A stretch of DNA of 43,346 nt from a virus. Shown here piece after piece: positions 1,969 to 21,667 of the stretch; positions within the stretch are counted from its first letter, which is position 1; each line of letters begins with the position of its first letter. The stretch lies in the IMG/VR virus record IMGVR_UViG_3300032304_000476, positions 1 to 43,346 of that record. The stretch is one strand, 5' to 3'. Below the pieces are notes generated by a model, which was not told the DNA's origin, ran no database searches, and saw only the letters and a list, made by a program, of their open reading frames with translations. The position numbers and the translations under genes are program-made.

Positions 1969-3053
1969 TACTGGAAGGCTCCGATTGGAATTGCAATAAT
2001 ACCTTTTGGCCCGTGACTCCTATGGTCATGTGCCTTGCCTTTGCCTGGTACCCCATGAGGTTTGTTGTGTGCTCGCATATCAGCTGACCCTAGGGCTTGG
2101 TCATAGTTGACTTCGCCTCTAAAACAACCAACGGCATAGGGAAATTCACGATTCAAGTGATAGTGATAGATATTCTGCATCTTTCCGTCCCACATTACTG
2201 GATGGGTATGTCCATGACATTCATCCAGTTGGTCGTTGGTGACCATTTTACCATCATCGCCTCTGGGACCGTAGATACCAAATCCATCTAGGGCATAACC
2301 AAACAAGGGTGAATGTCCTTCTGTTCCTTGATTAGGAAAACACTTCCAGCTGTAGCCATGCAGGTGATATTGTTGAGCATAAGGATGCCCCCAGCATTGG
2401 TCAACGGGCAAGATCGAAGCTGGCGGATACCATGCTGTGGCACTGGCGTTTGCGATCTCAGCATGCCATACTGTACCTGTGAGTGTGACACCAATTGGCA
2501 ATGCCGCAATTGGATTTGGCTTGGCACTTAGCTTTGGCTTTTTAGGTAGTTGAATATTCAACTCATAAGGACTGACGCCAATGGCCGCGGCACTGGAATA
2601 GTCATGACCGGGAAAGCCTGTTCTAAAATCGTGGCCGCCTGGCGCAGCCTGGTAATATTTGTAAGCAGGAGTGCCGGGTTGCACAGGAAAGTCGCCCATG
2701 GCAGTGTTTGGTAATCCATTGCCTACGAAATAACGATACTTGTCATCTTCGGTTATAGCAAACACACTGCCTTCCTTGGCATAGTCTTTGGCATATTTGG
2801 TGCCACTCACATATGGCATCTTTGCGATGACCACGGTGTTGTTTGTGGTATCCATCCAGGGCTGTGTGCTTATTTCAAATCGTGTGTTGCCAGGAACTGC
2901 CGCAAGAAAATCTGCAGCCATGAACAGTCCATTGCGTTGAGCTACATAAGGGCTTATGGTTCCTGAACTTAGTAATGTTGTTGGTGCATCTTCTGCTACA
3001 GCACTGCCGGCCAATACAATGCCGAGCATTGTTGTTAATAATATTTTTTTCAT
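1968..3053 (-). CDS. Secreted YHYH-domain protein
   Basis: A 361-residue protein with a clear Sec signal peptide: KK, then a hydrophobic stretch to about residue 18, and AVA|ED as likely cleavage site at 20/21. The YHYH motif that names the family stands at about 296-299, preceded by CHGHTHP at 279-285 and followed by GCFRG. The C-terminus is rich in His, Gly and Lys (about residues 328-352), which suggests metal binding. The function of the family is not established. The mature protein should lie in the periplasm or outside, which is unusual for a gene inside a phage nucleotide-metabolism operon. Its ATG overlaps the stop of the upstream mini-ORF (ATGA), with AAGGAT as ribosome site. Confidence 0.85.
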   Translation of the reverse strand: MKKILLTTMLGIVLAGSAVAEDAPTTLLSSGTISPYVAQRNGLFMAADFLAAVPGNTRFEISTQPWMDTTNNTVVIAKMPYVSGTKYAKDYAKEGSVFAITEDDKYRYFVGNGLPNTAMGDFPVQPGTPAYKYYQAAPGGHDFRTGFPGHDYSSAAAIGVSPYELNIQLPKKPKLSAKPNPIAALPIGVTLTGTVWHAEIANASATAWYPPASILPVDQCWGHPYAQQYHLHGYSWKCFPNQGTEGHSPLFGYALDGFGIYGPRGDDGKMVTNDQLDECHGHTHPVMWDGKMQNIYHYHLNREFPYAVGCFRGEVNYDQALGSADMRAHNKPHGVPGKGKAHDHRSHGPKGIIAIPIGAFQ

Positions 3054-3130
3054 TGTTCACCATCCTTGTGGGTGGGCGGGCACTTATTACCTAGGTGTTT
3101 AACGCCGCATTTTGGACAGACGGGTACCAT
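3050..3130 (-). CDS. 26-residue zinc-knuckle-like mini-protein
   Basis: A short ORF that fills the gap between aceA and the YHYH gene exactly. Its ATG shares bases with the aceA stop (TAATG at 3132-3128) and its TGA shares bases with the YHYH start (ATGA at 3053-3050). The product starts MVPVCPKCGVKHLGNKCPPT and has C5-x2-C8-x8-C17-x3-H21, a spacing able to hold one zinc ion. The double overlap and the ordered Cys/His pattern argue that it is translated. It could also serve only to couple translation of the two neighbours. No family is recognised. Confidence 0.6.
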   Translation of the reverse strand: MVPVCPKCGVKHLGNKCPPTHKDGEQ

Positions 3131-4341
3131 TAGAACTGATCCGCTTCTGTAGAGTGTTCAAGTGCTGTGGTGCTTGTTGCGCCCACCGCTGTGGCAATGG
3201 CATCAAAGTATGGAACACCTGCTTCACGCTGATGTTTAACTGTAGTAAAGCCACGTTCTTGTGCGGCAAATTCACGCTGTTGCATTTCACTGTAACCACG
3301 CATGCCTGTTTTCTGATAGGCTTCGGCCATTTCAAAGGTGGCCAGGTTGTTGCAATGGAAACCAGCCAGTGTGATAAACTGATAAGCATAGCCCATACGG
3401 CCAATATCTGCTTGGAAACTTTCGCACTGTTCCTCAGTCAAATACTTGCGCCAGTTGAAGCTGGGTGAGCAGTTGTAGGCCAACTGCTGATTGGGAAACT
3501 TCTCGTGGATAGCATCAGCAAATGCCTGTGCTTGTGCCAGGTCTGGTGTTGATGTTTCAAACCATAACAGGTCTGCGTACTCAGCATAAGCAAGTCCGCG
3601 AGCAATACAGGCACCCAATCCGTTTTTAAAGTGATAGAATCCTTCTTCTGTGCGCTCTTTTGTGTAGTCAATAAATGGTCGGTCTAATGGATCAATGTCT
3701 GTAGTAATCAATGTACCCGATTCTGCGTCAGTGCGAGCTAGAATAACAGTATCTACTTCGCAAACATCAGCAGCTAGACGAGCGGCATTTAAGTTACGAA
3801 CTGCTTGGCGAATAGGAATTAAGACCTTACCGCCCAAGTGTCCACATTTCTTTTCACTTGATAATTGATCTTCAAAGTGAACCGCGGCTGCTCCTGCTTC
3901 AATACAACTAAGAGTCAATTCGTATGCGTTGAGTGCTCCGCCAAAGCCGGCTTCACAGTCTGCAATAACAGGCAAGTAAAAGTCTTGGTTGCCTTCGCCC
4001 TCCAAGGTCTGTAGTTGGTCAGCACGACGTAGGGCATTGTTGATTTCTTTAACTACTTCAGGAACACTGTTTACTGGATATAAACTTTGATCAGGATAAA
4101 CACGACCACTGGTATTAGCAGCGGCAGCTACTTGCCAACCTGACAGGTAAATTGCTTTCAATCCTGCCTTGGCATGTTGAACTGCTTGCTGTCCATTATA
4201 TGCACCAAGTGTTGGCACAAATGGTTCTGTAGCCAACAACTCACGCAACTTGTTTGCGCCACGCTTGGCTAGTGTATATTCAATTTTTAAACTTCCTTGT
4301 AACTTTGTTACATCTTCTTTAGTATAATTACGCTTCTTCAT
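3130..4341 (-). CDS. aceA: Isocitrate lyase
   Basis: Splits isocitrate into glyoxylate and succinate, the first step of the glyoxylate shunt, in the cytoplasm. At 403 residues it is about 30 shorter than E. coli AceA (434), all at the N-terminus. The signature KKCGH is present with catalytic C166, as are DCEAGFGG (128-135, metal binding), HFEDQL, WFETSTPDL, YNCSPSFNW and the C-terminal STEADQF. KKCGH (not KRCGH) and the overall match to AceA favour isocitrate lyase over methylisocitrate lyase. All active-site pieces are intact, so it should be active. It starts at ATG 4341 after AAAGAGATG. It lies between nrdA and nrdB, firmly inside phage sequence. Malate synthase is not in the window. Confidence 0.95.
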   Translation of the reverse strand: MKKRNYTKEDVTKLQGSLKIEYTLAKRGANKLRELLATEPFVPTLGAYNGQQAVQHAKAGLKAIYLSGWQVAAAANTSGRVYPDQSLYPVNSVPEVVKEINNALRRADQLQTLEGEGNQDFYLPVIADCEAGFGGALNAYELTLSCIEAGAAAVHFEDQLSSEKKCGHLGGKVLIPIRQAVRNLNAARLAADVCEVDTVILARTDAESGTLITTDIDPLDRPFIDYTKERTEEGFYHFKNGLGACIARGLAYAEYADLLWFETSTPDLAQAQAFADAIHEKFPNQQLAYNCSPSFNWRKYLTEEQCESFQADIGRMGYAYQFITLAGFHCNNLATFEMAEAYQKTGMRGYSEMQQREFAAQERGFTTVKHQREAGVPYFDAIATAVGATSTTALEHSTEADQF

Positions 4342-4462
4342 TTTTCATCTCTTTCCATTCAAAATCGTCTGTAGGAACCCATCCGTTCCTAAAATACTTT
4401 ACTAAGTTCATAAACGGTCCTGCTTCTTTACCGTCATTTTTCCAGTTATAATTCTTATTCAT
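4328..4462 (-). CDS. 44-residue hypothetical protein
   Basis: An ORF in the gap between nrdA and aceA, starting MNKNYNWKNDGKEAGPF and ending EWKEMKNEEA, with three tryptophans and a mixed charge pattern. It begins 27 bases after the nrdA stop, with GGATTAAGT before the ATG, and overlaps the aceA start by 14 bases, the same close packing as other pairs here. No domain is recognised. Its amino-acid make-up looks like a real small phage protein, but coding is not proven. Confidence 0.5.
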   Translation of the reverse strand: MNKNYNWKNDGKEAGPFMNLVKYFRNGWVPTDDFEWKEMKNEEA

Positions 4463-4488
4463 ACTTAATCCATATAACTTACAGCTTT

Positions 4489-6810
4489 CTATAATTTACA
4501 GGCGATGCAGTCCTCCTCACTCTCATCAAAGTCCACAGCTTCTAGTTTTGCTTCTGGTTCGTCTTGTCCTTTGCTACCTTGTTTGTTAATCAAGCTGTAG
4601 TAGAATGTTTTTAATCCCCAACGATGTGCCTGCATCAAGTTCTTAGCAATCAATGTAGTAGGAACTTTACGATCGGCAAAGTGCGCTGGGTTGTAGAATG
4701 TGTTAGTCGAGATTGACTGATCCACATAGGCCGCAATTACACTGGCTGTCTTAATGTAGCCAACACAATCTTTTTGATCCCACATGAGTTGATATTTGTT
4801 TTTCAACTTGTTGTACTCGGGTGCTACTTGAATTAAACTTCCTGCTTTTGATTCTTTAACAGTGATCAAACTCATTGGCATTTCAATACCGTTAGTGCTG
4901 TTGATTACAACACTACTAGATTCTACTGGCGCCACAGCCATTAAGGTAGCATTACGCACGCCGTGAACCTTCATCATCTCGCGAAGTTTTTCCCAATCAA
5001 GTTCGGGTTTGAAGTTGGCTAGTTCATCCACTGCCTTGGCACGAAGTTCCCAAGGAAATACTCCTTGACCATAACGTGTGAGTCCTGAATGACTGCATGG
5101 TCCACGTTCCTTGGCTAGTTCCACTGTGGCTTCTGTCAAATAGTAGGCCTGATGTTCCATCCATGATTTAACTTCTTGTAGTGAATCCTTCTCGCCATAT
5201 AACAAACCACGCTTGGCGTGCCAGTAAGCTAGGTTAGTGATGCCAATACCCAAAGGCTGGATTTCTTGATTGCTTAACTGACTTTGGATGCTTAAGAAAT
5301 CTTGGTAGTCCAAAATATTACACAAGCTACGCTGAAGTATGCGGCAAGCACGGCGCATGTCTTCAGGATTGCGGAACGCACCCCAATTGATGGAACCCAA
5401 CGTACAAAGAGCAATACGGCCATCGCTGTCATCCAGACGTTTAAACGACTTGGTTGGCAATAGGATTTCACAACAAAGGTTACTCTGGTAAATGGTATGG
5501 AATTCAGGATCAAATGGCCCTTGACTCTGAACATTGTCAATAAACACAAGATAGATACGGCCTGTGTCAGTGCGCTCTTTTAAAATGCCGCCTTTGAATA
5601 CGTCCTCGGCGTTCATTGTTTTCTTACGTAGGTCCTTACGACGTTCATATTTTACATACAGTTCTTCAAATTGTGCTGTGTTCTTGTAAAAAGCTTCATA
5701 CAAGTCAGGCACTTCGTTAGGGTCAAAGAATGTAATGTCTTCTTTGTTTTTAAATCTGCGCCAGAAGAAACTGTTAAGAACTACACCGTAGTCCATAAAC
5801 CTTACTCGTGTTTCTTCTGTGCCTTGATTATTCTTAAGCACAATAAGATCATCAAACTGATAGTGCCAAATAGGATAAAATACAGTGGCACTGGCATTAC
5901 GAATGCCTCCTTGACTGCAACTGCGTAAGTCACCAAACCATTTTTTAAGGAATGGAATCATACCTGTATGCATGACTTCACCGCCGCGAATGGCTGACCC
6001 TAGTGGGCGTAAGCGGCCAATCTCTAAGCCAATACCGGCTCGCTTGGCCGCATACTTGGCCATCATCTCCCCACTAGCAAATATGCTATCCAGATTGTCG
6101 TCACTGCGGATAAGCACACAACTAGAAAACTGTTTAGTTGGAGTGCCAAGCCCAGCCAACACAGGTGTAGCAAGAGTAAACAGACCATCTGACGCCGCGT
6201 TGTAATACTCTTTGATGTAACGCATACGGGCTGCATTAGGTTCTTCTTTATGGAATACAGTAGCGGCCGCAATAATATACCTAATTTGTGGCGTCTCATA
6301 GATCTCTTTTGTTGCGCGATTGCGAACAAGATACTTCTCAATAAGTTGTTCAATTGCTGCATAGCTATATCCCTCATCTTTGTCATGGTCAAGCATATCA
6401 TTCATGCGGTTCCAGTCATCTTTGCTGTACCATGTTAATAGTTCATCGGTGTAAAGACCAGTTGCTACATTCTTTTTTACAATTTCATAAAGATGTGGAG
6501 GTTCATAACTGCCATAAACATCTTTACGCAACATACTTAGGCGTTGTTTACCTGCCACGTATTGATAGTTAGTGTGCCCAATATCTGGATTACTTTCAAT
6601 GTCAATTAAGTCCACAATGGCTCGTAATGTAATACCATCAATTTCTGTTGTGGTAATACCATCGTAGAAATGCAATTGTGCTTTAATTTCAATCATGCTC
6701 TGACTTACGTCGGCAATACCTTGACAAACTTTGGCAACCTGTGCCTGCCACTTTTCAATATGCAGTGGCTCTTTTTGTCCGCTTCTTTTAACTACTGTAA
6801 TCTGCGTCAT
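4489..6810 (-). CDS. nrdA: Ribonucleotide reductase class Ia, large subunit NrdA (R1)
   Basis: Catalytic subunit that reduces ribonucleoside diphosphates. The 773 residues compare with 761 in E. coli. An ATP-cone-like region fills about 1-95. Key residues are all visible: C231 (FSSCVLI) and C469 (ALCTLGSIN) as the reducible pair, N444, C446 and E448 in SNLCCEILLP as the active-site triad, the radical-transfer tyrosine pair in TFYYSLIN near residue 735, and a C-terminal CIAC that would pass electrons from glutaredoxin (CxxC rather than the wider spacing of E. coli). It starts at ATG 6810 after GAGAG, with a lone TATAAT-like -10 about 16 bases upstream. It heads the operon that ends with nrdB and grx. 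Confidence 0.97.
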   Translation of the reverse strand: MTQITVVKRSGQKEPLHIEKWQAQVAKVCQGIADVSQSMIEIKAQLHFYDGITTTEIDGITLRAIVDLIDIESNPDIGHTNYQYVAGKQRLSMLRKDVYGSYEPPHLYEIVKKNVATGLYTDELLTWYSKDDWNRMNDMLDHDKDEGYSYAAIEQLIEKYLVRNRATKEIYETPQIRYIIAAATVFHKEEPNAARMRYIKEYYNAASDGLFTLATPVLAGLGTPTKQFSSCVLIRSDDNLDSIFASGEMMAKYAAKRAGIGLEIGRLRPLGSAIRGGEVMHTGMIPFLKKWFGDLRSCSQGGIRNASATVFYPIWHYQFDDLIVLKNNQGTEETRVRFMDYGVVLNSFFWRRFKNKEDITFFDPNEVPDLYEAFYKNTAQFEELYVKYERRKDLRKKTMNAEDVFKGGILKERTDTGRIYLVFIDNVQSQGPFDPEFHTIYQSNLCCEILLPTKSFKRLDDSDGRIALCTLGSINWGAFRNPEDMRRACRILQRSLCNILDYQDFLSIQSQLSNQEIQPLGIGITNLAYWHAKRGLLYGEKDSLQEVKSWMEHQAYYLTEATVELAKERGPCSHSGLTRYGQGVFPWELRAKAVDELANFKPELDWEKLREMMKVHGVRNATLMAVAPVESSSVVINSTNGIEMPMSLITVKESKAGSLIQVAPEYNKLKNKYQLMWDQKDCVGYIKTASVIAAYVDQSISTNTFYNPAHFADRKVPTTLIAKNLMQAHRWGLKTFYYSLINKQGSKGQDEPEAKLEAVDFDESEEDCIACKL

Positions 6811-6844
6811 TAATACTCTCTATTCTTAATTATATTGGTTACTG

Positions 6845-7261
6845 CTAGATAATTTGGTCCTGCTGGTACTGCCTTTTGATTTTTACTTTAGTGAAGGTAT
6901 TTACGATTTGATCAGCTTCCCAATTAAGTATATATTTTTCTTTTGCAACCTGGACTAAATTACTGCCATTTTCAGTCAAAACCAAGGTTGTAGGAGCCAT
7001 ATCCACACGATCAAGCATACTGATAGTATACACTATTCCAAGTCCTCTTGCAAGATCACAATAGACATCATCGCTCAAAAGTTGCCAAGGATCGGGCCAA
7101 GAAGGTTGATCATCCCAGTGTAGGTAATATGGTCGCCAGGGAGTGTTAAACCACCAACGATTGATTTCAGCTAACGCAGATTCTAAAGGGAGATTTTGAC
7201 AATGGTTCCGTAACTGGGCCCAGCTAGCCAGCCTAGCGTCAAAAGTTGTAGGCCAGATCAA
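6845..7261 (-). CDS. Hypothetical protein downstream of the tail spike
   Basis: A 138-residue protein rich in Trp (WWFNTPWRPYYLHWDD near 36-51, WPDPWQLLSDD near 55-65), with no signal peptide or membrane segment. The start is TTG at 7261, which overlaps the TGA of the spike gene (TTGA), so it is probably translated by coupling. Its position right after a virion protein suggests a role as a spike chaperone, an assembly factor or another tail component; this is inferred from context only. The family is not recognised with certainty. Confidence 0.75.
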   Translation of the reverse strand: MIWPTTFDARLASWAQLRNHCQNLPLESALAEINRWWFNTPWRPYYLHWDDQPSWPDPWQLLSDDVYCDLARGLGIVYTISMLDRVDMAPTTLVLTENGSNLVQVAKEKYILNWEADQIVNTFTKVKIKRQYQQDQII

Positions 7262-8847
7262 ACTAGATATGTAATAGAATAACGGATGGTACTGTTGATA
7301 CCAAGATTGGTCGTGGCATAGTCTAAAGTAACATTGTTGCCCGCCTGGGTTACTGACAAAGAAACTCCAGTATCGGTATTTTCTGTGTAATCATCACTCC
7401 AAGTCAAGTCAGTTGAGTCACCAGGATCAGTAGCAACCATTATGGTTCCAGTGCGGTATCTAGTAGCTCTTATCACGGTATAGTTGACCATAAAGGCTTT
7501 AGTTAGGGTAGTACTGATTGTGAACACCGATCCACTATCATCGTCGATTAAGATGTCCTGTTGTCCGCTTTCTCTAGTGTATGTTCCCATGGCCAACTGG
7601 CTGCCGTTGGTAGTGGCTATACTTACTGTATTGTTAAGATCAATTCTAGGATGGGTTGTGGAAAATGTGTCTGTTCGTTGGAACAGATCGCTAATGCTAA
7701 TGTTGTTGTTACTTTGTATACTGATAATACTAGTAAACGGAGTACCTGTGCTGCCTGTAAAGTGATTGCCTACATCATAAAAAATATTGTGTCCGCTGGC
7801 ATTGATTGCTAACACAAGATTACTACCAAATATAATGCCTTCAGCATAGATGTTGTCAAACATGTTGCCTACAATTCGTGTGCCAGTTGGCCCGCCATTA
7901 GTTACTGCCGCGGTGCCTAGCACAATGCCTCTGTACAAAGTATCAAACTGACTAGTAGAAATTGTGATTGCTTTTGTTTGCTGGTTAGTGTTGATACCCC
8001 AAACTAGACCAGAAAACACGCAACCATCAAAGGTAATTTGTTCACAAACAAGACTGCTAGTGCTGGCAAAACTTACACCAATACTTCCATTGGCATCAGA
8101 TATTAAATTAGCTGTAGTAGAGGTTCCTCGGAATCCTACATTTTGAAAACGACAGTTAGTAGCATCTTGCACTAGGAACACATCTTGTTCTGGATCAGAA
8201 TGTGTAAATCCCATGTTAGTAATGGTAATATATTGAGGGGTGGTTGCACCGGCGTTGCCAATGTTAACTCCAATATTTTGTAAACTATCCGCAGTACGAG
8301 CCACATAATCAGCTACACCGTCATCCATAACAATTAAAGAATTGTCTCCACCCTCACCTACTAATGTAGCATAAGGAGGAATCTTAATAGCACTGGTTAC
8401 ACGATATACACCTGCTGGAAAAAACAAACTGCGGCGTATTTGTGGATTTACTTCTCTGCAATAGAGTTGATACAAGGCACGATTGATGGCCGCAGTATCA
8501 TCTGTAAGACCATCGCCCGCTGCACCAAAGTCTAGCACGCTGGCAAATTGATCTAACCATGATTGTAAACTTAAAGTTATTGGATCGCCAGCAGTGGCAC
8601 CTGTTTGCACAGTGTATCCAGCGGCTTGGCCTTTGTAGGTGTAGGTGTTGGTAAAGTTTAAAATGTCACTAAATTCTGTTAAGATTTCGGTGTTGCCAAT
8701 AACAGGTGCGCCATCTTCAAGTGTACCGTTACCAATGTACAACTGGCGGGTGTCTGTTGACCAGCCTAATTCAGCACCAGCTAATTGTGGTAAATTTTCA
8801 TTTAACCCTTTACGGTTAGTGATCTGGGATATTTGTACAATGGCCAA
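7258..8847 (-). CDS. Tail spike or fibre with pectate-lyase-like beta-helix
   Basis: A 529-residue virion protein. Residues 1-50 match the short N-terminal modules of phage fibre proteins (AELGWSTDTRQLYIGNG at 25-41). From about 104 comes VLDFGAAGDGLTDDTAAI, the classic start of pectate-lyase-superfamily beta-helix spikes (a conserved DFGAxGDGxTDDTxAI), followed by many short Asn/Gly/Thr-rich beta repeats to about 400 and a small C-terminal beta domain. It would bind and perhaps cleave a host surface polysaccharide. The start is TTG at 8847 with AAGGAAG seven bases upstream; a late-promoter-like TAAATACT lies at 8879-8872. No obvious catalytic residues can be assigned. Confidence 0.85.
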   Translation of the reverse strand: MAIVQISQITNRKGLNENLPQLAGAELGWSTDTRQLYIGNGTLEDGAPVIGNTEILTEFSDILNFTNTYTYKGQAAGYTVQTGATAGDPITLSLQSWLDQFASVLDFGAAGDGLTDDTAAINRALYQLYCREVNPQIRRSLFFPAGVYRVTSAIKIPPYATLVGEGGDNSLIVMDDGVADYVARTADSLQNIGVNIGNAGATTPQYITITNMGFTHSDPEQDVFLVQDATNCRFQNVGFRGTSTTANLISDANGSIGVSFASTSSLVCEQITFDGCVFSGLVWGINTNQQTKAITISTSQFDTLYRGIVLGTAAVTNGGPTGTRIVGNMFDNIYAEGIIFGSNLVLAINASGHNIFYDVGNHFTGSTGTPFTSIISIQSNNNISISDLFQRTDTFSTTHPRIDLNNTVSIATTNGSQLAMGTYTRESGQQDILIDDDSGSVFTISTTLTKAFMVNYTVIRATRYRTGTIMVATDPGDSTDLTWSDDYTENTDTGVSLSVTQAGNNVTLDYATTNLGINSTIRYSITYLV

Positions 8848-9600: not shown

Positions 9601-10977
9601 TTATAATGGAAGTTTGCGATACGCTTGTTGTTGGTCAACTGATAGACTTGTTTCATCAAGCGTGATCTGAAAATTGTGCAACAGTTGTTGATGATCCGCT
9701 GATAATATATCATAAAATTTTTTATTTCCTACCTGCATCTGAGTTTGATTAGCCCGATCATGTTTGGCAGTATCAAACAAATATAATTCAAATTGATTGT
9801 ATATTTCATTGTTGCTAGATAAAAAATCAATCATGCCATCTAAAAAATAACTTAACGAATCGTGTTGTTGATTATTAAATATAGCATGATTTCTTGCTTG
9901 TTGCAATAGATTTTTTAATTGACTTCTATATTCTATTGGCAAATTTTGTATGGTCATATGAAATGGCCGAAACATTATTACATTCTTGATAGGAATTTGG
10001 ACAAGTTGAGTTGATTTAAACCATAAATGCCACCAATCTAAATAATCAATAATATAAAAAATATTGTTAAGGTTCCATAATGGTTGAATAGTAAGTAGCA
10101 GTTGGTTATTTTGTAACTGCGGTAATATTTGTTGTAAATTTGTTGTTATTTGAGTCCACCGTCCTGGAGACCGAACATAATCATAATTTTCTTCTATACT
10201 GTCGATGCTAGCAAAAAGATTTACCTGTTTAAATTGATCAAACTGTTTAACTACACGAGTTTGTAAATTTGTAAAATTGGTTGTAACATTTAATATAATT
10301 TGGCTACTGAATGATTTTTCATTTAGCCAATCAATCAATCGCAGAGCACCTGGTTGAATCAATGACTCGCCGCCAAACAAACTTAAATTTATAGTGTGGT
10401 GTTTTTTTAATTTTTGTGTTATGTTTTCAGTAATGTCTGTCCAAACTACAGGATTGTCGGCAATATCGTGAACTAAGTCTTTTGGTATTTGCAGTTGATG
10501 TACTTGTGCATACTTACTACTAAAAGTTGGCGAGCAGGATCTACAAGCAAGATTACATAAATTAGAAAACTTAATACCAATTACGCTGTCTGTAATATTA
10601 GCTGTGGTTAAAAATTCATTGAATTGCGTACTTGAATTGTCCAACAATGCCATTGTTCGTTCACTACTGCCGGTTTGTTGTTCTGAATTATAGCATCTTT
10701 GACAATTAGAATTTAATTGTCCTTGAGACACTGATTTTTTTACTTGGTCAATAGCAGTTGGGTCTGCATCAGTGAGTAAATTACAACAACAACTGTTTCT
10801 TAAGTATGTTTTTTGTTTATTAATATCACGCTGGCCATCAAATTCTATATTAATTATGCGATTAATAAACGGAAGAACACACACATGTGGATTTTGTTTG
10901 GCCCAGTTTAATTTTTGATCTGCTTGCCAATTATTGTCCCACAGGCCAGTGCATGCAATTTTAGTTTCTTGATTCAA
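9601..10977 (-). CDS. Radical SAM enzyme, copy 1
   Basis: A 458-residue radical S-adenosylmethionine protein. The [4Fe-4S] motif is CNLACRSC with C141, C145 and C148, followed by a GGES motif near 207 that binds SAM. Before the core there is a Cys-rich part (CCC at 63-65, CQRC at 92-95) with a downstream S-x-R motif that the two other radical SAM proteins in this window share. No C-terminal SPASM cysteine cluster is seen, so it is a twitch-like or minimal type; the substrate is unknown. It starts at TTG 10977, overlapping the iscA stop (TTGA), so it is co-translated with Fe-S assembly genes. The gene is rich in A/T and in Asn and Gln compared with core genes. Confidence 0.85.
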   Translation of the reverse strand: MNQETKIACTGLWDNNWQADQKLNWAKQNPHVCVLPFINRIINIEFDGQRDINKQKTYLRNSCCCNLLTDADPTAIDQVKKSVSQGQLNSNCQRCYNSEQQTGSSERTMALLDNSSTQFNEFLTTANITDSVIGIKFSNLCNLACRSCSPTFSSKYAQVHQLQIPKDLVHDIADNPVVWTDITENITQKLKKHHTINLSLFGGESLIQPGALRLIDWLNEKSFSSQIILNVTTNFTNLQTRVVKQFDQFKQVNLFASIDSIEENYDYVRSPGRWTQITTNLQQILPQLQNNQLLLTIQPLWNLNNIFYIIDYLDWWHLWFKSTQLVQIPIKNVIMFRPFHMTIQNLPIEYRSQLKNLLQQARNHAIFNNQQHDSLSYFLDGMIDFLSSNNEIYNQFELYLFDTAKHDRANQTQMQVGNKKFYDILSADHQQLLHNFQITLDETSLSVDQQQAYRKLPL

Positions 10978-11291
10978 ATTCTAAAACTTTCGCCGCACCC
11001 ACAGCGATCCTTTTCGTTTGGGTTAATAAATTCAAAGCCTTCGTTGAGACCTTGGCGTACATAGTCTACTGTGATGCCATCTATGATGGGTAAACTTTTT
11101 TTGTCTACAATAACATTGGTGTGATTGTCAGCCATGGCAATATCACCGGGTTGTAGTGCATCTACATATTCTAACACATAAGCTAGTCCACTGCACCCTG
11201 TAGTTCTTACACCTATGCGAATACCTATTCCACCACGTTTGTCTAAATTAGATTTAATTTTACTGGCGGCGGCTTCAGTTACTTGTATCAT
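10974..11291 (-). CDS. iscA: A-type Fe-S carrier protein IscA/ErpA-like
   Basis: A 105-residue HesB/IscA-family protein that carries Fe-S clusters or iron to target proteins. All three cluster ligands are present: C33 in TTGCSG, and C97 and C99 in CGCGESF at the C-terminus. The NPNEKDRCGCGESF ending is typical of bacterial IscA, and GLNEGFEF precedes it. It overlaps iscU by 17 bases and is followed directly, through a TTGA overlap, by a radical SAM gene that needs a [4Fe-4S] cluster. The exact subfamily (IscA or ErpA) is uncertain. Confidence 0.9.
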   Translation of the reverse strand: MIQVTEAAASKIKSNLDKRGGIGIRIGVRTTGCSGLAYVLEYVDALQPGDIAMADNHTNVIVDKKSLPIIDGITVDYVRQGLNEGFEFINPNEKDRCGCGESFRI

Positions 11292-11661
11292 GTTTTGCCC
11301 TGTAGTCTGCTACTGCCGCCTTAATAGCGTCTTCCGCAAGGATCGAACAATGAATCTTAACCGGCGGGAGTGCGAGTTCCTCTGCAATTTCAGCATTCTT
11401 AATTGCGCCAGCCTCGTCCAGCGTTTTACCCTTGACCCATTCGGTGACAAGTGACGACGAAGCGATCGCCGACCCACAACCATAAGTTTTAAATTTTGCA
11501 TCTGTTATGATTCCATCTTCTACTTTGATTTGCAGGCGCATCACGTCCCCGCATGCCGGAGCCCCCACTACTCCAGTTCCTACTGAACTATCAATGGTGT
11601 CCATTTTGCCCACATTGCGAGGATTTTCATAGTGATCGATTACTTTTTCTGAATAGGCCAT
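11275..11661 (-). CDS. iscU: Fe-S cluster scaffold protein IscU
   Basis: The scaffold on which Fe-S clusters are built from sulfide delivered by IscS. At 128 residues it is complete: C37 and D39 (GAPACGDVM), C62 (TYGCGSA), C105, and LPPVK at 98-102, the HscA chaperone site. The likeness to beta/gammaproteobacterial IscU is very high along the whole length, far above that of the other genes here to bacterial proteins, which suggests a recent acquisition from the host. The ATG at 11661 has a near-perfect AAGGAG site and a sigma70-like promoter. No iscS, hscA or hscB is in the window, so the host must supply them. Confidence 0.96.
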   Translation of the reverse strand: MAYSEKVIDHYENPRNVGKMDTIDSSVGTGVVGAPACGDVMRLQIKVEDGIITDAKFKTYGCGSAIASSSLVTEWVKGKTLDEAGAIKNAEIAEELALPPVKIHCSILAEDAIKAAVADYRAKHDTSN

Positions 11662-14877: not shown

Positions 14878-16791
14878 TTAGGCGGGTTGTTTTGGATTGT
14901 TTATTTGACGATTTGCAACAGTAAATCCGCCGGCCAAACGATTTACAGCCTTGGCCATGCCGGCTCCAGTGGCCATCACCCAGCCCTCTTGACCTGGATG
15001 TTGTAGATCTAATTGATTTAAAATATCCATTTTGATATCATGTAACAAGACCCAGGCTGTGAATGCCGCGGCCATGCCATCCAAGTTGCTACGTGGACTT
15101 TGAATGTATTCTACAATATTGTTGAATTTTTTAGGAGTAACATGTTGCTGGAGCCATGGTCCAAACTGCGCCAACAAATTGTCAAATCCAGTACCAACTC
15201 TGCTGTTGATATAGTCTATACATAATCGAGGTAAATCAGTGATTTGTAATGCACGAAGATCTGCAGGATCAAACAGTTGATCAATTGCGGCACCTTGACT
15301 GGTATACACATCTTTGACTTGCTGTACTAGTTGACGATTTGGTCGTACATTTTCTTTGGCGTACACAGGTTCTAATAACAACAACCCAGGCACCTTTTTA
15401 AAATCAACACGGCCGATAGGCTCTTTAGGAGCACCGGGTTCTGCATATCTTGTATGCATAGCGATACCAACTTCGCTATTAGCAATACGTTGGCCTACGT
15501 CACTGGCCGCTGGAATCTTATATTCTACTGTATTAGGAGTAAAAACAAAATTACCAGCTTGTTCGGGCGGACGTTGTGTGTATAGTAAATCGCCTTGCAC
15601 GTATCCTTTAAAATCTTTGGATACAGCGGCCTCTAACATGGGCCATAGATTCACATACAAAGGCAACAGTGTTTCAACCCGAGTGGCCGGACGGCCTTGT
15701 GCTTCGGCATCAGCATCACGCTGTTCTAAATGTCTTGCCACTTGACGTGGACTTGTAAACAGTCCGTTATAACCGCGAGCTGTAAATCCAGACACATCGG
15801 TTAAAACAAATGTTCCTTCAGGATCGCGCCCAAATACCAAGGCAGGTTTTCCGTCCCACTTGACTGTGGTAGTTTTACCTGTGTTGTCTGCGGTATATTT
15901 TACAATGTCTAGGGCCTTTTTAATGCCCGCACTGCCATTACGAAATACAAGATCTTCTAGGTGTTCAATGCCTTTGGCGCGACCACCTTGCACTTCTGCT
16001 TCAACAATGACCTGCATGCCTTGATTTATAATACGATCACGCAAGCGAGCTAGGAAGTTTACGTCGCTAACAGGCTGATATAATTCTGCACTTTCTAAAA
16101 ATGGCAGGCCTTCACGTTCCATGTGCTGTTTAAAGTCTGCTAATTTAGCGTCACGTTGAGGATCTGTGCTTAATGCTTGTAATATTGATTCCACGCTGGC
16201 AAGATCTTGACGTGTGGCTGTTCGGTTTAATAATAGTTTAGCTACCTGGTCAGGATTATCGGTGATAATTTTGTCTGTGGTACGATCAGCAATGCCGCCA
16301 ACCTGATTTAATTTATATCCCATGCTTTTAGCAATACTGTTCATCAACACATTGCGTTCGCGGCCTTTATACTTTGAGTCTAACGGCATGGCGCCAAGCA
16401 CAAATTTGCTCCAAGGAACATTTTTAAGAAACATAAAATCTGTTTGCACATACCCTAGATCTGGACGACCGTTGATGGGAGTTTTAAAATGCACACCAGC
16501 ACCGGTTTGTTTAACCCAGTCTTCGGGTTTTTGTTTTTGACTAATGGCCCAACGGGTCAATTGTGCTATTAATTGTTCTTTGGTTAATTGTTTGGCGTCA
16601 ACTGCAATGTCTAAATCGCCCGAAGTATCTTTGATGCCAGTTGAGCCTAGGGTGTTGTTTTGTAGATCAAGGCCAGGTAACATTTCTTCCAACCAGGCCA
16701 AGGTTGATTTAACATCCGTTTGATTGATTCGTTGTGTAACCGCGCGACCGTTACCGTCTTTAAATACGTTGCCGCCTTCGAGTAAGTTCAT
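14878..16791 (-). CDS. Nucleotidyltransferase plus KxDG ligase-like fusion protein
   Basis: A 637-residue protein of a type found in T4-like aquatic phages. Residues about 40-120 look like a polymerase-beta-type nucleotidyltransferase: G49-S50, then S-G-D59-L-D61, and a third acidic residue D118 in VQTDFMFL. Near 275-290 is IEHLEDLVFRNGSAGI. At 310-318 VKWDGKPAL has the form of motif I (KxDG) of ATP-dependent DNA/RNA ligases and capping enzymes, with K311 as possible AMP-accepting lysine; YVQGDLLYT near 397 and EYKIP and GRVDFKK further on could be later ligase motifs. It starts MNLLEGG, with L-L-E at 3-5. It is probably packaged or virion-associated (inferred). Both activities are predicted from motifs only. 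Confidence 0.7.
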   Translation of the reverse strand: MNLLEGGNVFKDGNGRAVTQRINQTDVKSTLAWLEEMLPGLDLQNNTLGSTGIKDTSGDLDIAVDAKQLTKEQLIAQLTRWAISQKQKPEDWVKQTGAGVHFKTPINGRPDLGYVQTDFMFLKNVPWSKFVLGAMPLDSKYKGRERNVLMNSIAKSMGYKLNQVGGIADRTTDKIITDNPDQVAKLLLNRTATRQDLASVESILQALSTDPQRDAKLADFKQHMEREGLPFLESAELYQPVSDVNFLARLRDRIINQGMQVIVEAEVQGGRAKGIEHLEDLVFRNGSAGIKKALDIVKYTADNTGKTTTVKWDGKPALVFGRDPEGTFVLTDVSGFTARGYNGLFTSPRQVARHLEQRDADAEAQGRPATRVETLLPLYVNLWPMLEAAVSKDFKGYVQGDLLYTQRPPEQAGNFVFTPNTVEYKIPAASDVGQRIANSEVGIAMHTRYAEPGAPKEPIGRVDFKKVPGLLLLEPVYAKENVRPNRQLVQQVKDVYTSQGAAIDQLFDPADLRALQITDLPRLCIDYINSRVGTGFDNLLAQFGPWLQQHVTPKKFNNIVEYIQSPRSNLDGMAAAFTAWVLLHDIKMDILNQLDLQHPGQEGWVMATGAGMAKAVNRLAGGFTVANRQINNPKQPA

Positions 16792-17903
16792 CGTAGGTCA
16801 AACCCTGCTAATTTTAGCAAAGTATCGGCAGTTGTATCGCCGGTCCTTCTTGTTGTCATTGGGCTTCCGGCCTCCTTGGCTTGAGCACCAAATTGTGCCA
16901 ACCTACTAGGATCAATGCCGGCATCACGCAAAGATTGTTTCACTGATCCTGAGGAGGTAGCAAACTGAGTATTTTGTTGTTGTGCCGAAGCTGATACTCC
17001 ATTTTTTGAACTTTGTGCTAGGGCCTGCACGCCAGCTACAGCTAACTTGATGTATTCTTCTACAGCCCGAGTTTGTTGAGCGGTACCTTGTGTTTGTATA
17101 ACTTGATTCAATGCCGCCGACAATTTGGTAGACAGGTCTGGAATTTTATCGCGTACTTGGGCCATGGTAATAGTAGTACCGGTTTCAGGAACACGGGTGG
17201 CCAACTGATCATCAGACCAGTTAACAAAAGCTGTTCGATATTGATCTGCGGCCGGACCTACTATGGCCGCCTCGTTTAAATCGGACTGCATACCCTGGAT
17301 ACCGCCCTTGGGTTGACCAAAAACTTTTTGCATGGTTTGTCCAGCCTTACTTGCAGCAACAGTTGAACTCATTTGTCCAGGTTTACCATAAGAATATTTT
17401 GTTGCTGATTTTGTAGGTGCGGCTGTGGTAGATGCTCCGTCAACTGTGACTCCTTGTTTGTCCAGTTCATTTTTTAGTTGTGCAATAGCAGCAGACTTAT
17501 CTGCGGTGTTAGACCAAACAGTAGGTGCTGACTTGGCTAAAATCTGACCAATCTGTGTTGATGTTAAATTGTTATTGGTTTTTTTGGCGGCAGAGACCAA
17601 GGTTGGAATTGTTTTTTGCAAGGTTGTAGCAGAAGTTAATCCTTGTGTAGGCTTTACTAAAGTGCCGGCAGTTTTTGCCCAGCCGTCGGCTAGATTTTTA
17701 GCATAGGTGGCTACCGCTGCATCTTTTTGTAAGGCCGCATATCTGTCTTCCCACTTGTCAGACGTGTTTTGTTTTACTCCAGCTTTTGGAGTTTTGTCCA
17801 TTAATCGATCGGTTAAGCCGCCGGTTAATCCAGAAAAGAAAGACCCTGCAGGTCCTAATGCTTCATCAATACGACGAGGTTGCGTTATTTCATGAATTTG
17901 CAT
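16788..17903 (-). CDS. Virion-associated protein with M-x-I-x-E start
   Basis: A 371-residue, Ala/Thr/Gln/Lys-rich, low-complexity helical protein starting MQIHEITQPRRIDEALG. Residues 22-35 are Gly-rich (SFFSGLTGGLTDRL), the middle (about 60-260) has many Lys-Ala-Thr stretches, and the end carries GSVKQSLRDAGIDPSRLAQF. Residues 3-5 (I-H-E) match the signature of three neighbours. Composition is like capsid-internal proteins. It overlaps the ligase-like gene by ATGA and the upstream 82-residue gene by 14 bases, so the three are probably made together. Confidence 0.75.
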   Translation of the reverse strand: MQIHEITQPRRIDEALGPAGSFFSGLTGGLTDRLMDKTPKAGVKQNTSDKWEDRYAALQKDAAVATYAKNLADGWAKTAGTLVKPTQGLTSATTLQKTIPTLVSAAKKTNNNLTSTQIGQILAKSAPTVWSNTADKSAAIAQLKNELDKQGVTVDGASTTAAPTKSATKYSYGKPGQMSSTVAASKAGQTMQKVFGQPKGGIQGMQSDLNEAAIVGPAADQYRTAFVNWSDDQLATRVPETGTTITMAQVRDKIPDLSTKLSAALNQVIQTQGTAQQTRAVEEYIKLAVAGVQALAQSSKNGVSASAQQQNTQFATSSGSVKQSLRDAGIDPSRLAQFGAQAKEAGSPMTTRRTGDTTADTLLKLAGFDLR

Positions 17904-18138
17904 CTGTGCGTCTCACTGTTCGGGTAAACTTACCTGGGTCGCGCTGATTAATAGCGTTGAGCAATTTTCGCTGTAGATTTTGAGCATCCTCTACACTATA
18001 ACTAGAGTCAATCTGCTCCAGCAAGCGTATAGCACTAGCTATGACGTTAGCAGCACGGTTTTCAATAACATGGCGCTGATCACGCTCAACATACATTGAG
18101 TCTAATTCTTCCAATAAACTGCGTGTCTTTTTTTGCAT
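17890..18138 (-). CDS. Small helical protein of the late block
   Basis: An 82-residue, highly charged helical protein starting MQKKTRSLLEELDSMY and ending KFTRTVRRTDANS. L-L-E occurs at 8-10. The C-terminus is basic. A late-like TAAATAAT lies at 18165-18158, about 20 bases upstream, and the gene opens a run of virion-type genes that overlap. No family is recognised. Confidence 0.75.
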   Translation of the reverse strand: MQKKTRSLLEELDSMYVERDQRHVIENRAANVIASAIRLLEQIDSSYSVEDAQNLQRKLLNAINQRDPGKFTRTVRRTDANS

Positions 18139-18190: not shown

Positions 18191-19327
18191 TTAGGTAGAC
18201 TGTGTTGGATACCATTTTAGGAATTCTGGATATACAGATTTCCAGCTTTGATTTCTCAGCTGATCGTGGCGATTTAAATCAGCAAATGCATTGCTAATAT
18301 GCATTAAAGAATCAGTTTTTAAGTTCTCAAAAGTTTTATAAACCCAGTGGGTTGAGTCAAATTTATCTAATACTGCTTGTTTATATTGTTCGCTTACTGC
18401 ATCTAAAGAATATGTTCCAATACAACCATGATAATTCATTGAGATAGCATCACCGTATTTGCTTTTGAAAAAATATTGTTTGTGCCATTGTTCTAGCTCA
18501 TCAGCCCAATACGCCGATAATATTCCAATAGTACGTTCTATTCTTAACAGTGCATTATGAGGTAAATTTTCTTTCCACCACAACATATTTTCGTGTATTT
18601 CGTTCCACACCATTGGCCAGCGTTGGTATTCCATTCGGGGTCCCATGTCGTCAAGGCTAAAATAAATTTCTAGCATTTTAAACTTTTCCCAAAATTTTAA
18701 AACCGAATCCGATACTTGTTGTGTTCCATTGGAATGATACCATAAAGATATTTGAGATAGGTCCACGTGATCTTGCAATTGTTCAAGAACTTGAATGTGT
18801 GTGTTTGATAATAGTGGTTCGCCGCCTTGAAAATGTATTTGCTTAATGTTGTGCGCCGGCATTGTTTTAATCAATTCTGTTACATCAATATTTTTTGCTC
18901 TAACTTTAAACTTTTTTTCATTTTTTTTATACAGCGGATCAACTTGACGCCATAGGGTGCTAAAAATTGGGCTGCAAATTCTGCAGGCCAAATTACAAGA
19001 AAAATCACACTGTATATCTAATTCAACAATCGAACTAGGCATATTCCAATCTGTACCGAGTCGTTCGTTCCAGGATTGTCGGCGGCTATAATTACCAGAA
19101 GATTCTGTATTTTTACAAGTTTTGCAATTGTTAGGCAGATCTTCACCTAGTATATTTGCCTGTCGTTCGGCTACAATCTTGGGATGTTGCCATAATTCTA
19201 AATTGATATTCTCATTAATTGGAAATTGTTCGTCATACAAACAACATGGTTTCCCATACCAGGTTGCTTTTTCAGTATTATACCGAAGCCAAAGTCCACC
19301 TTGAAGGTCTGCACAATAATTTTTCAT
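18191..19327 (-). CDS. Radical SAM enzyme, copy 2
   Basis: A 378-residue radical SAM protein with CNLACRIC (C111, C115, C118) for the [4Fe-4S] cluster, and QGGEPLL near 168 for SAM binding. The N-terminal part has CC at 28-29 and C68-x2-C71 followed by E and S-R-R, the arrangement shared with the other two copies. The core ends near 260; the rest is rich in Trp and Tyr and lacks a SPASM cluster. Substrate unknown. It is coupled to the helicase gene upstream by ATGA, so it is transcribed with primase and helicase. Confidence 0.85.
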   Translation of the reverse strand: MKNYCADLQGGLWLRYNTEKATWYGKPCCLYDEQFPINENINLELWQHPKIVAERQANILGEDLPNNCKTCKNTESSGNYSRRQSWNERLGTDWNMPSSIVELDIQCDFSCNLACRICSPIFSTLWRQVDPLYKKNEKKFKVRAKNIDVTELIKTMPAHNIKQIHFQGGEPLLSNTHIQVLEQLQDHVDLSQISLWYHSNGTQQVSDSVLKFWEKFKMLEIYFSLDDMGPRMEYQRWPMVWNEIHENMLWWKENLPHNALLRIERTIGILSAYWADELEQWHKQYFFKSKYGDAISMNYHGCIGTYSLDAVSEQYKQAVLDKFDSTHWVYKTFENLKTDSLMHISNAFADLNRHDQLRNQSWKSVYPEFLKWYPTQST

Positions 19328-20727
19328 GTTGTTTTAATCTGTCCCAGTAATTGTTTTAGTTTAGCACTTTGTACGTCGGCAGTGATTTTACCAATTTCAC
19401 TAGTGTCGGCGTCTACATTTTCTTTACTAAGCATTGTGCTTTTTGCTTTGATGCTGTCAAGTAAATTGCCCTTGGCAAATGAATTCACTGGGCCAGCTTC
19501 TTCGCCCGGATCAGTAATACGCATTGTTTCGATGTTATAGTCTAAGTCAATTTTTTGTCCAACACCTGTAGAGCTACGCGATTTCATACATTGTATTTGA
19601 TATTTGCCACGCTCACGCATAGCGCGACTTGTAAAGATACCAAATACATTATCTGCGGTATTAATCTTTGAAATACCACCTGAAATATGACTATGGTCAA
19701 ATTCAATTTCTTCTACCGCACTACGATTCAACTGCGACGCTGTTACAAACAACACATTAAGTTCTTTAGCCAAGTTACGCAACTCTTCGGAAACATATTT
19801 GTCCTTAACAAACAGGTCGTTTGGGCTAACCTTGGCGCTTACAGGCATCAACAAGTCCAAATAGTCACACATGATAAAGTCTACCTTAATACCTGTTTGC
19901 ACTTGTACTTCTTTAATATAACTACGAATGTCATTAATGTTACTCTGTGCTGGCAGTGCTTTGATTCTATACTGTCCGGCTTTCTTGCTTACAAGTTTAA
20001 CCTTAAGTTCCGTCTGATCAATGTCTTTGCGAATCTCTTTGGTGCTCATTCCGGCCAACATAGCATCTGTTCTTAGGGCACATAGTTCTTCACTCAGTTC
20101 TAAACTAACGTACACACCACTTAATCCTGCTTGTAACCAACTCAATGCTATATTCATCATAACAAGACTTTTTCCTGACCCAGACCCACCAGCAAAAATA
20201 TTAAGCTCTCCACGACTGAATCCGCCATACAAAATTTTGTCCATCTGTGGCCAACCTGTGCTGACTTGACCGCCTGAATTAAAATACTTGTTGATACGAG
20301 CATTAGGATCTGCAAAGTAATCCGTACCCATGTCTTTGGTCAAACTAATTTGTACCGCATCTTTGATCAGTTTTTCTACAGGATCATACTCGCCTTTTTC
20401 CAACAAGTCTGCTGATTTTAAAATTGCACGTTCTAGTTCTTGTCTACGAGTAAACTGCTCAAACTCGTTCATAAACCATTCAAAGTGGCCTTCGGTCAGA
20501 TCCGGAATATGTTTAAGTTCTATTCCTGTAGCTGCTCGAATTTGATCTGTACCTGGAAGTGTTTTGTATTCGTTGCTATGTGTAGCAATAAACTCAGCCA
20601 CAGGACGCAAGCTTCGATCAAAGTTTTCTGGATTGTAAATGTTTTGTACCCGCACATACGACTCTGCGTCTTGCAACATCATTTCTAAGAATAGTTTTTG
20701 GACATCAAGCCCGTAGTCTTTTAACAA
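19324..20727 (-). CDS. 41: Replicative DNA helicase gp41 (DnaB-like)
   Basis: A 467-residue RecA-fold helicase that unwinds the replication fork 5'-3' and works with gp61 primase. Residues 1-130 are the helical N-terminal domain; Walker A is GGSGSGKS at 180-187, Walker B near MCDYLDLL, and the DnaB-type end SRSSTGVGQKIDLDYN follows. Length and order fit T4 gp41 (475). The start is TTG 20727, inside the end of the primase gene, with AAGGAAG five bases upstream. The C-terminal tail from about 400 is charged and probably unstructured. Confidence 0.93.
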   Translation of the reverse strand: MLKDYGLDVQKLFLEMMLQDAESYVRVQNIYNPENFDRSLRPVAEFIATHSNEYKTLPGTDQIRAATGIELKHIPDLTEGHFEWFMNEFEQFTRRQELERAILKSADLLEKGEYDPVEKLIKDAVQISLTKDMGTDYFADPNARINKYFNSGGQVSTGWPQMDKILYGGFSRGELNIFAGGSGSGKSLVMMNIALSWLQAGLSGVYVSLELSEELCALRTDAMLAGMSTKEIRKDIDQTELKVKLVSKKAGQYRIKALPAQSNINDIRSYIKEVQVQTGIKVDFIMCDYLDLLMPVSAKVSPNDLFVKDKYVSEELRNLAKELNVLFVTASQLNRSAVEEIEFDHSHISGGISKINTADNVFGIFTSRAMRERGKYQIQCMKSRSSTGVGQKIDLDYNIETMRITDPGEEAGPVNSFAKGNLLDSIKAKSTMLSKENVDADTSEIGKITADVQSAKLKQLLGQIKTT

Positions 20728-21667
20728 GTTGTTTCTTCCTTAATTCTATTTTAATTTTACTAGTGTCTTTGGCCTGCATTATAGTTAGCAAAGTTCCAAG
20801 TCTACCCAACTGAATCACAGCATCATTTACATCCTTGACACCTTCGGGCCAGTCGGGCATGCTTACTGCCCATCCTAGTTCTACTGCACGGTCTACCAAC
20901 TTCATTCCAGCTTCGTCTTGATCCGGTACTACAATAACTTCACGTCCCAAACTGCGTATTAGTCTAACTTGTGCATCGTTAACTTCTGCATGTAGCACTG
21001 CTAGACCATTGATGCTCAATGCATCAAACACACCTTCTACTACAATTGCTGTTTGCCAGTTGGGCTTTTGTAAATCTGTTCCAAATACATATCCAGGTTG
21101 TATGTCTTGAATATACCTTGGTGTACGGTCGTCAAGGAATCGTGTAGTGTGTCCTACTACTTGATTATTGTGTGTAAACGGAATCACTACACCGCGTCTT
21201 GGCATTGTTTTATATAAAAACGGGTAATCCAACGGAACACATCTCTTTTGCAAATACTCTTTGGCAAAATCATTTAACTCTTGTGTTTCTGCCGGTAGGT
21301 CCTTGTCTTCAAATTCAATTGACTGTAATTTTTGTATTACTTCTTGCCGATCGCCCAGTAACCCTTCTATACTCTTGTGTTTTAAACTTTCAAGGTTTAT
21401 GCGCTCTATTTCTTCTTGTGGCACAAGCATCCACTCTAGCAACTTACGAGCCTTGAATGTTAGATTACGGCCCAGAATAAAACTAGCAGTATATCCACAG
21501 TTAAAACAATGATATGACCATGATCCGTCTGTGCCAGGTTTGATTCCACCACGTTGTCGTTTGTCCTGTGTGTCGCCACGATGTATGCAACAGGGTGCGT
21601 TGAAACTTATCCAGCCACTTGCTGTTTGTTTTCGCTTGCCAGGTAAAAAAGAAACCACATCAATCAT
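20705..21667 (-). CDS. 61: DNA primase gp61
   Basis: A 320-residue primase that lays down RNA primers at the fork. A zinc-binding domain holds C26/C27-x-H29 and C54-x2-C57 (HCFNCGY). A TOPRIM domain follows, with EGVFDAL near 211-217 and VPDQDEAG near 246-253 carrying the metal-binding acidic residues. The layout matches T4 gp61. It overlaps the helicase start by 23 bases. The ATG at 21667 comes only five bases after a TATAAT box, so the mRNA is probably leaderless. Confidence 0.93.
   Translation of the reverse strand: MIDVVSFLPGKRKQTASGWISFNAPCCIHRGDTQDKRQRGGIKPGTDGSWSYHCFNCGYTASFILGRNLTFKARKLLEWMLVPQEEIERINLESLKHKSIEGLLGDRQEVIQKLQSIEFEDKDLPAETQELNDFAKEYLQKRCVPLDYPFLYKTMPRRGVVIPFTHNNQVVGHTTRFLDDRTPRYIQDIQPGYVFGTDLQKPNWQTAIVVEGVFDALSINGLAVLHAEVNDAQVRLIRSLGREVIVVPDQDEAGMKLVDRAVELGWAVSMPDWPEGVKDVNDAVIQLGRLGTLLTIMQAKDTSKIKIELRKKQLVKRLRA

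Follow-up and report, generated by a model that had tools for sequence, protein, structure and literature searches.

What does a viral protein do that carries, in a single chain, the active-site pattern of a nucleotide-adding enzyme and that of an ATP-dependent ligase? The question is raised by a gene at positions 14,878–16,791 (minus strand) of the window, by which we mean the whole stretch of DNA analysed, the 43,346 nucleotides of IMG/VR record IMGVR_UViG_3300032304_000476. An earlier note, made from the letters alone, had read the product as a possibly new nucleotidyltransferase-ligase fusion with a capsid-targeting start, which might repair nucleic acid ends or protect tRNA. The features it described are confirmed, and the interpretation placed on them is partly supported. 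The answer developed here, to which we give about an even chance, makes the protein a strand-repair enzyme that works in two steps, filling a gap and then sealing it; it would be carried in the head and injected, with phage DNA as its likeliest substrate. Both components of the protein come from known superfamilies. What is new, within the literature searched, is the function assigned to DUF6267, the way the domains are combined and the likely packaging in the head; we found no mention of DUF6267 there.

Architecture of the protein

The open reading frame encodes 637 residues, which we assign to a PolX-like nucleotidyltransferase fused to a DUF6267 predicted ligase. Its ATG overlaps the stop codon of the upstream gene (ATGA), and all of the features located below within the protein lie, like the gene itself, on the minus strand. 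The GS...D-x-D pattern (G49-D61), D118, the IEHLED block (276-281) and KWDG (311-314), from which the fusion was first proposed, are all found at these positions. In the full-length AlphaFold model (mean pLDDT 83), two confident domains are separated by a disordered linker, residues 234-272 (15,976–16,092), with pLDDT of 30-45 over most of its length. The pTM of this model, 0.52, is what one would expect when two domains have no fixed orientation to each other. Searches of NCBIfam and PADLOC returned nothing for the window protein.

Residue conservation was counted over distinct family members aligned to separate profiles of the N- and C-terminal domains. The aligned members include stand-alone nucleotidyltransferases (~25-32% identity) and cyanophage homologues; the latter are only ~22-28% identical to the window protein, and thus the invariance of the motifs reflects functional constraint rather than recent ancestry.

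The N-terminal domain resembles family X polymerases

Residues 6-233 (16,093–16,776) are modeled as a palm and a thumb. In the VIA comparison, residues 11-201 match residues 139-335 of Pol beta, the palm and thumb of that enzyme, with a Z-score of 10.8 and an rmsd of 3.1 over ~163 residues, and the top Foldseek matches are Pol lambda, mu and beta (probability ~1.00, E 1e-3). The stretch at residues 49-61, GSTGIKDTSGDLD (16,609–16,647), holds the nucleotide-binding GS and the first two metal-binding aspartates, D59 and D61, with the spacing of the PolX GS...D-x-D motif. The third catalytic aspartate, D118 (16,438–16,440), lies on a VQxD strand that aligns with LQVDLR of bacterial PolX. These residues are conserved throughout the family (G49 157/157, S50 153/157, D59 156/157, D61 157/157, D118 156/156); the invariant positions of the domain are G49, G58, D61, Q116, D118, G143 and R146.

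Sequence comparisons agree with this placement at a lower level. No Pfam, PHROG or NCBIfam match to the N-terminal half was above cut-off; the most frequent Pfam match, to PF14791 (DNA_pol_B_thumb), was returned for 6 of 21 family members, with a best E of 0.047 that is likewise below cut-off. A profile of nine bacterial and archaeal PolX sequences (the genes were fetched with a Bacillus-type query used as bait only) was run against 2,797 sequences, and members of the nucleotidyltransferase family headed the non-PolX matches (best E 0.044). With hhalign, the V-Q-T-D118 strand falls on the L-Q-V-D strand of the bacterial PolX profile and the helix NSIAKSMGYKLN on the PolX thumb helix; at a probability of 1.7% and P 0.029, this alignment is used for register only. 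Searches of the PDB by sequence alone, whether the query was the single protein or either domain profile, gave no related enzyme, no ligase and no PolX. The sequence signals are weak even though they agree, and we therefore call the domain PolX-like, short of proven PolX. On the model and motifs, it is predicted to be a minimal family X-like nucleotidyltransferase with palm, thumb and three metal-binding aspartates, and no lyase domain. With Pol beta and lambda, bacterial PolX and ASFV PolX it shares the palm and thumb, the GS...SGD-x-D motif and the third aspartate in VQ-x-D; it differs from them in having no 8-kDa/HhH domain and no significant overall sequence similarity, and in being fused to a ligase.

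The idea of a CCA-adding or tRNA-protecting enzyme fared less well. Among 21 family members, the RlaP model PF10127 gave no match at E<=10 and the CCA-enzyme Pfam models gave none. No CCA enzyme is among the structural matches listed, the rows shown for this half all being Pol beta or Pol lambda. Both the CCA-enzyme and the RlaP identities were dropped.

DUF6267 as a predicted polynucleotide ligase

The C-terminal half is less new than had been suggested, since it belongs to a named family, DUF6267 in Pfam (PF19782, E 1.2e-29) and 455 in PHROGs, listed in both as of unknown function. The domain, a predicted covalent nucleotidyltransferase of the polynucleotide-ligase kind, spans residues 273-630 (14,902–15,975). 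When it is folded alone (pLDDT 89.1, pTM 0.83), each of the 50 best VIA matches is to an ATP-dependent RNA or DNA ligase, with Z-scores of 6.3-8.1 and an aligned range that spans the whole domain. The best match is the nick-sealing RNA ligase of Naegleria (Z 8.1); human LIG1 (7.0), TbREL1 (6.8), T4 Rnl2 (6.8), T4 Rnl1 (6.6) and a fungal tRNA ligase are also listed. The Foldseek E of 0.019 is not significant and the Z-scores are modest, so that the weight rests on the uniformity of the match list and on invariant motifs in the expected strands.

Ligase motif I is K311-W-D-G314 (15,850–15,861), conserved in 245/245 sequences, and K311 is the predicted AMP-accepting lysine. The earlier note had named loss of K311 or of D59/D61 within the family as grounds for refuting the fusion; all three residues prove to be conserved. 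Just before it stands the family-specific IEHLEDLV block, residues 276-283 (15,943–15,966), whose conservation had been noted before and is borne out by H277, E279 and D280 in 243/243. Three further elements had been missed and are likewise invariant: a motif III-like strand, G400-D401-L-L-Y (15,580–15,594; 245/245), with Asp in place of the ligase Glu; motif IV, E602-G-W-V605 (14,977–14,988; E602 and G603 231/231, V605 230/230); and the motif V region, K614-x-V616-x-R618 (14,938–14,952; 230/230). The spacing from motif IV to the motif V lysine, K614, is 12, and the second motif V lysine is absent, with R618 invariant instead. A family-specific helical insert, residues 486-597 (15,001–15,336), separates the motif III region from motif IV. 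Over 230-246 sequences, the invariant residues of the domain are H277, E279, D280, K311, W312, D313, G314, P316, G400, D401, H446, E602, G603, V605, K614, V616 and R618. Sequence and structure prediction together show residues 273-630 as an ATP-dependent polynucleotide-ligase domain whose motif I contains K311 and whose motifs IV and V are intact, and ligase activity is predicted for it.

With ATP-dependent RNA ligases (Naegleria Rnl, T4 Rnl2, TbREL1) the domain shares the fold (Z 6.8-8.1), K-x-D-G, E-G-x-V and the downstream lysine; it departs from them in its motif III Asp, in the long helical insert before motif IV and in having no recognised accessory OB or C-terminal domain. Compared with DNA ligases of the gp30/LIG1 type, it has Asp rather than Glu in motif III, no OB domain and no motif VI. 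The predicted fold stops just after motif V, in contrast to a ligase of one relative (L290) with a DNA_ligase_OB_2 domain.

Distribution and gene neighborhood

A search of the phage collection with the whole protein matched 235 records, most of them from cyanophages, with the C-terminal half usually the part aligned; for the N-terminal half alone, matches were confined to two Rhizobiales jumbo phages (three records) and four Flavobacterium records. In metagenomic viral contigs the fusion is abundant: at least 590 related stretches were found there, and loci taken from them contain 154 fused open reading frames. In this analysis the exact fusion came only from such contigs. No close relative was found in bacterial and archaeal genomes, and the stand-alone nucleotidyltransferase of Sinorhizobium phage Phosso had no relatives in IMG/VR.

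The transcription order in the window is DNA primase (20,705–21,667, minus strand), DnaB-type helicase (19,324–20,727, minus strand; 50% identical to that of Phosso), a radical-SAM gene, an 82-residue PHROG 11854 virion structural protein (17,890–18,138, minus strand), a leader-bearing protein and the fusion gene. With primase and helicase as syntenic anchors, Phosso and Agrobacterium phage Atu_ph07 show the order primase, helicase, small genes, a ~240-residue protein, a ligase-like gene with K-L-D-G and the nucleotidyltransferase. Their small genes include the 82-residue protein, 46% (Phosso gene 444) and 29% identical to the window copy; in Atu_ph07, the gene that precedes the helicase carries the annotation 'hypothetical'. 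The nearest Pfam family of the two K-L-D-G proteins is RNA_ligase (0.002 and 0.085, both below cut-off). The DUF6267 profile did not detect these genes, which may therefore encode another kind of ligase at the corresponding position; in these two Rhizobiales jumbo phages they lie beside the nucleotidyltransferase, at 3,806–5,041 of locus L084 and 4,031–5,005 of L085. That nucleotidyltransferase and ligase are neighbors in one operon and a single polypeptide in another lineage speaks strongly for their acting together. The proposed fusion is backed by its folds, by the conservation of its motifs and by synteny.

Elsewhere, the window encodes an isocitrate lyase (3,130–4,341, minus strand; PF00463, E 1.8e-100), a phage-carried enzyme of the glyoxylate shunt, and an IscU scaffold (TIGR01999, E 8.4e-66) adjoining an A-type Fe-S carrier (PF01521) at 10,974–11,661 (minus strand). 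Three radical-SAM genes are present (9,601–10,977, 18,191–19,327 and 38,709–39,908), together with a YHYH-domain protein (1,968–3,053, minus strand) and a class II aldolase-like protein (1,297–1,968, minus strand).

DNA or RNA as the substrate

Dedicated polymerases and ligases, paired or fused, carry out gap filling and sealing in ASFV (PolX and its ligase) and in bacteria (LigD). The two ASFV enzymes, unlike the halves of the window protein, are separate proteins. LigD has a primase-type polymerase and works with Ku; no Ku (PF02735) was found in 11 phage records of relatives, several of them fragments, and end joining with Ku is thus unsupported. For ASFV PolX, gap filling is documented (PMC5330486). 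Replacement of the replicative ligase by the C-terminal half in the window lineage was also considered and dropped: the large relatives encode a DNA ligase of T4 type, OB domain included, so the half described here is not their only ligase.

The most serious rival is repair of RNA ends, in which nucleotides lost when a tRNA or another RNA is cleaved would be restored by the nucleotidyltransferase and the ligase would then rejoin the strand, as proposed for RlaP and Rnl ligases. RlaP-ligase cooperation is established thinking (PMC7824862). These pairs likewise place a Pol-beta-superfamily nucleotidyltransferase beside a ligase in large phages. The window fusion differs from them in its nucleotidyltransferase family (no PF10127), its covalent linkage, its replication operon and its head-packaging leader. 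The case for RNA draws on the ligase half, whose nearest structures are RNA ligases, nick-sealing Rnl at the top, and which has Asp in motif III and no OB domain; on the separate DNA ligase of the relatives; and on the partner ligase of the Rhizobiales phages, with its sub-threshold leaning toward RNA_ligase. Against it stand the PolX-like N-terminal domain, without RlaP or CCA model match, the primase-helicase operon and the absence of tRNA genes from the window and from eight related loci. The RlaP of Atu_ph07 is a separate gene elsewhere in its genome, and none was found in the fusion-bearing relatives tested. The same evidence tells against the tRNA-protecting role suggested earlier. We regard RNA-end repair as rather doubtful, and DNA repair is favored over it, roughly twofold. 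Phage DNA is the likeliest substrate because the gene lies in a primase-helicase operon and the N-terminal domain resembles gap-filling DNA polymerases.

The leader and probable packaging into the head

Residues 1-5, MNLLE (16,777–16,791), form a putative propeptide that ends in L-x-E before GGNVF, a predicted prohead-protease site. The 46 distinct leaders of the family are 4-7 residues long and always followed by GG; position -1 is Glu in 46/46, position -2 is free, and position -3 is L in 29, I in 14 (hence L or I in 43/46) and V in 3. Stand-alone homologues start with MGG (MGGNVF), and so folding does not depend on the leader Glu. In T4, gp21 cleaves after L/I-x-E (PMC9026906). The window is only a 43-kb record; two of its relatives, of ~340 kb, encode an S77 T4-type prohead protease (E 1.6e-26 and 5.9e-24) and also the gp23 capsid protein. 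The internal head proteins of T4 (Alt, IPI-III) likewise have an N-terminal propeptide ending in L/I-x-E; their targeting sequences are 10-19 residues long, in contrast to the 4-7 seen here, and the cargo in the window would be a repair enzyme.

The gene immediately upstream (16,788–17,903, minus strand) has a long targeting-type leader, MQIHEITQPRRIDE followed by A, and a body that is highly variable among phages. Nearly all of the 117 upstream neighbors examined start with MQIHE and then I, L or V, ahead of a very variable body; the leader has the form MQIHE[IL]T...xE followed by G or A, usually with an [L/I/V]-x-E site within ~20 residues. A conserved leader with a fast-changing body resembles a cassette for head-packaged cargo. 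Each genome has a single leader of the MQIHE type, and so an exact MQIHE tag common to many head proteins was rejected.

The leader pattern and the protease of the relatives make packaging and injection of the fusion protein likely, and they lend support to the capsid-targeting start proposed in the earlier note. The domains could also be right and the setting different: the enzyme would serve ordinary DNA replication or recombination in the cell, would be no virion protein, and its [L/I]-x-E-G start would be fortuitous or otherwise used. This reading accords with the primase-helicase operon, with a leader shorter than the known T4 targeting sequences and with the leaderless DUF6267 proteins of cyanophages. 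It is unlikely given a hydrophobic-x-E before GG in every one of the 46 leaders with the middle position free, the MGG start of the stand-alone homologues and a leader of the same type, also conserved, on the upstream gene.

For a head-carried gap-filling and sealing enzyme, the following course may be pictured. The short leader would take the protein into the prohead during head assembly, where a gp21-like protease would cut after [L/I]-x-E and leave GGNVF at the N-terminus. The enzyme would be ejected together with the phage DNA. Its N-terminal domain would add the missing nucleotide or nucleotides at a gap or end, and its C-terminal domain would adenylylate itself on K311, pass the AMP to a 5'-phosphate and seal the nick. 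The substrate would most likely be phage DNA with damage or gaps, either on entry or while it is being replicated.

DUF6267 in cyanophages

DUF6267 was found in 468 phage records, 453 of them named Synechococcus, Prochlorococcus or 'Cyanophage'. The cyanophage proteins (T4-GC 71) have the same motifs and the same place after the gp41 helicase; they are without the nucleotidyltransferase half and without the leader. The gene follows gp41 and mazG and adjoins a HIGH-type 'cytidyltransferase', and some members carry a HIGH nucleotidyltransferase instead of the PolX-like half, as in S-PM2, where S-PM2d138 (591 residues, annotated as hypothetical; 3,995–5,770 of locus L393) joins DUF6267 to a HIGH cytidylyltransferase-like domain. 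The neighbor of DUF6267 (T4-GC 190 in P-HM1) was detected in virions of S-SM1 (PMC3037559). Flavobacterium immuto phages have a stand-alone nucleotidyltransferase, then a second one fused to a HIGH domain; immuto gene 182 (5,908–8,631 of locus L086) encodes 907 residues, with a PolX-like nucleotidyltransferase, a HIGH nucleotidyltransferase and a C-terminal HEMIH stretch with a weak Peptidase_M91 match.

Cofactor or small-molecule chemistry, with both domains activating a small molecule in partnership with the HIGH-type enzyme of the cyanophages and Flavobacterium phages (for example in NAD recycling or nucleotide modification), would fit these adjacencies and fusions and the invariant, unexplained IEHLED block before motif I, and is nonetheless very unlikely, given that the HIGH partner is not beside the gene in the window lineage, that the PolX thumb and the nick-sealing ligase fold point to polynucleotides and that the operon is replicative.

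Strand sealing leads to a different question in the cyanophages. According to Iyer et al., most large phages of this group are without a known DNA ligase (PMC7824862). In the complete genomes of S-WAM1, P-TIM40 and P-HM1, we found no match to PF01068, PF01653 or PF09414 (ATP- and NAD-type DNA ligase and RNA_ligase), and S-PM2, searched for PF09414 alone, gave none. DUF6267 is present in 453 cyanophage records and the complete genomes tested have no recognizable ligase; it is therefore a candidate for the missing one. The NAD ligase of the host could serve the cyanophages instead. We propose tentatively, as something possible and short of probable, that DUF6267 is the unrecognized DNA ligase of marine T4-like cyanophages and that, in a freshwater lineage, it has been fused to a minimal PolX as a virion-delivered gap-fill-and-seal enzyme that would repair the incoming genome before phage genes are expressed. 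The fusion would be unusual in that a phage apparently packs, along with its genome, one enzyme that both fills gaps and seals them. Should DUF6267 prove to seal nicks, it would fill the place of a core replication activity that has been missing from some of the commonest viruses of the ocean.
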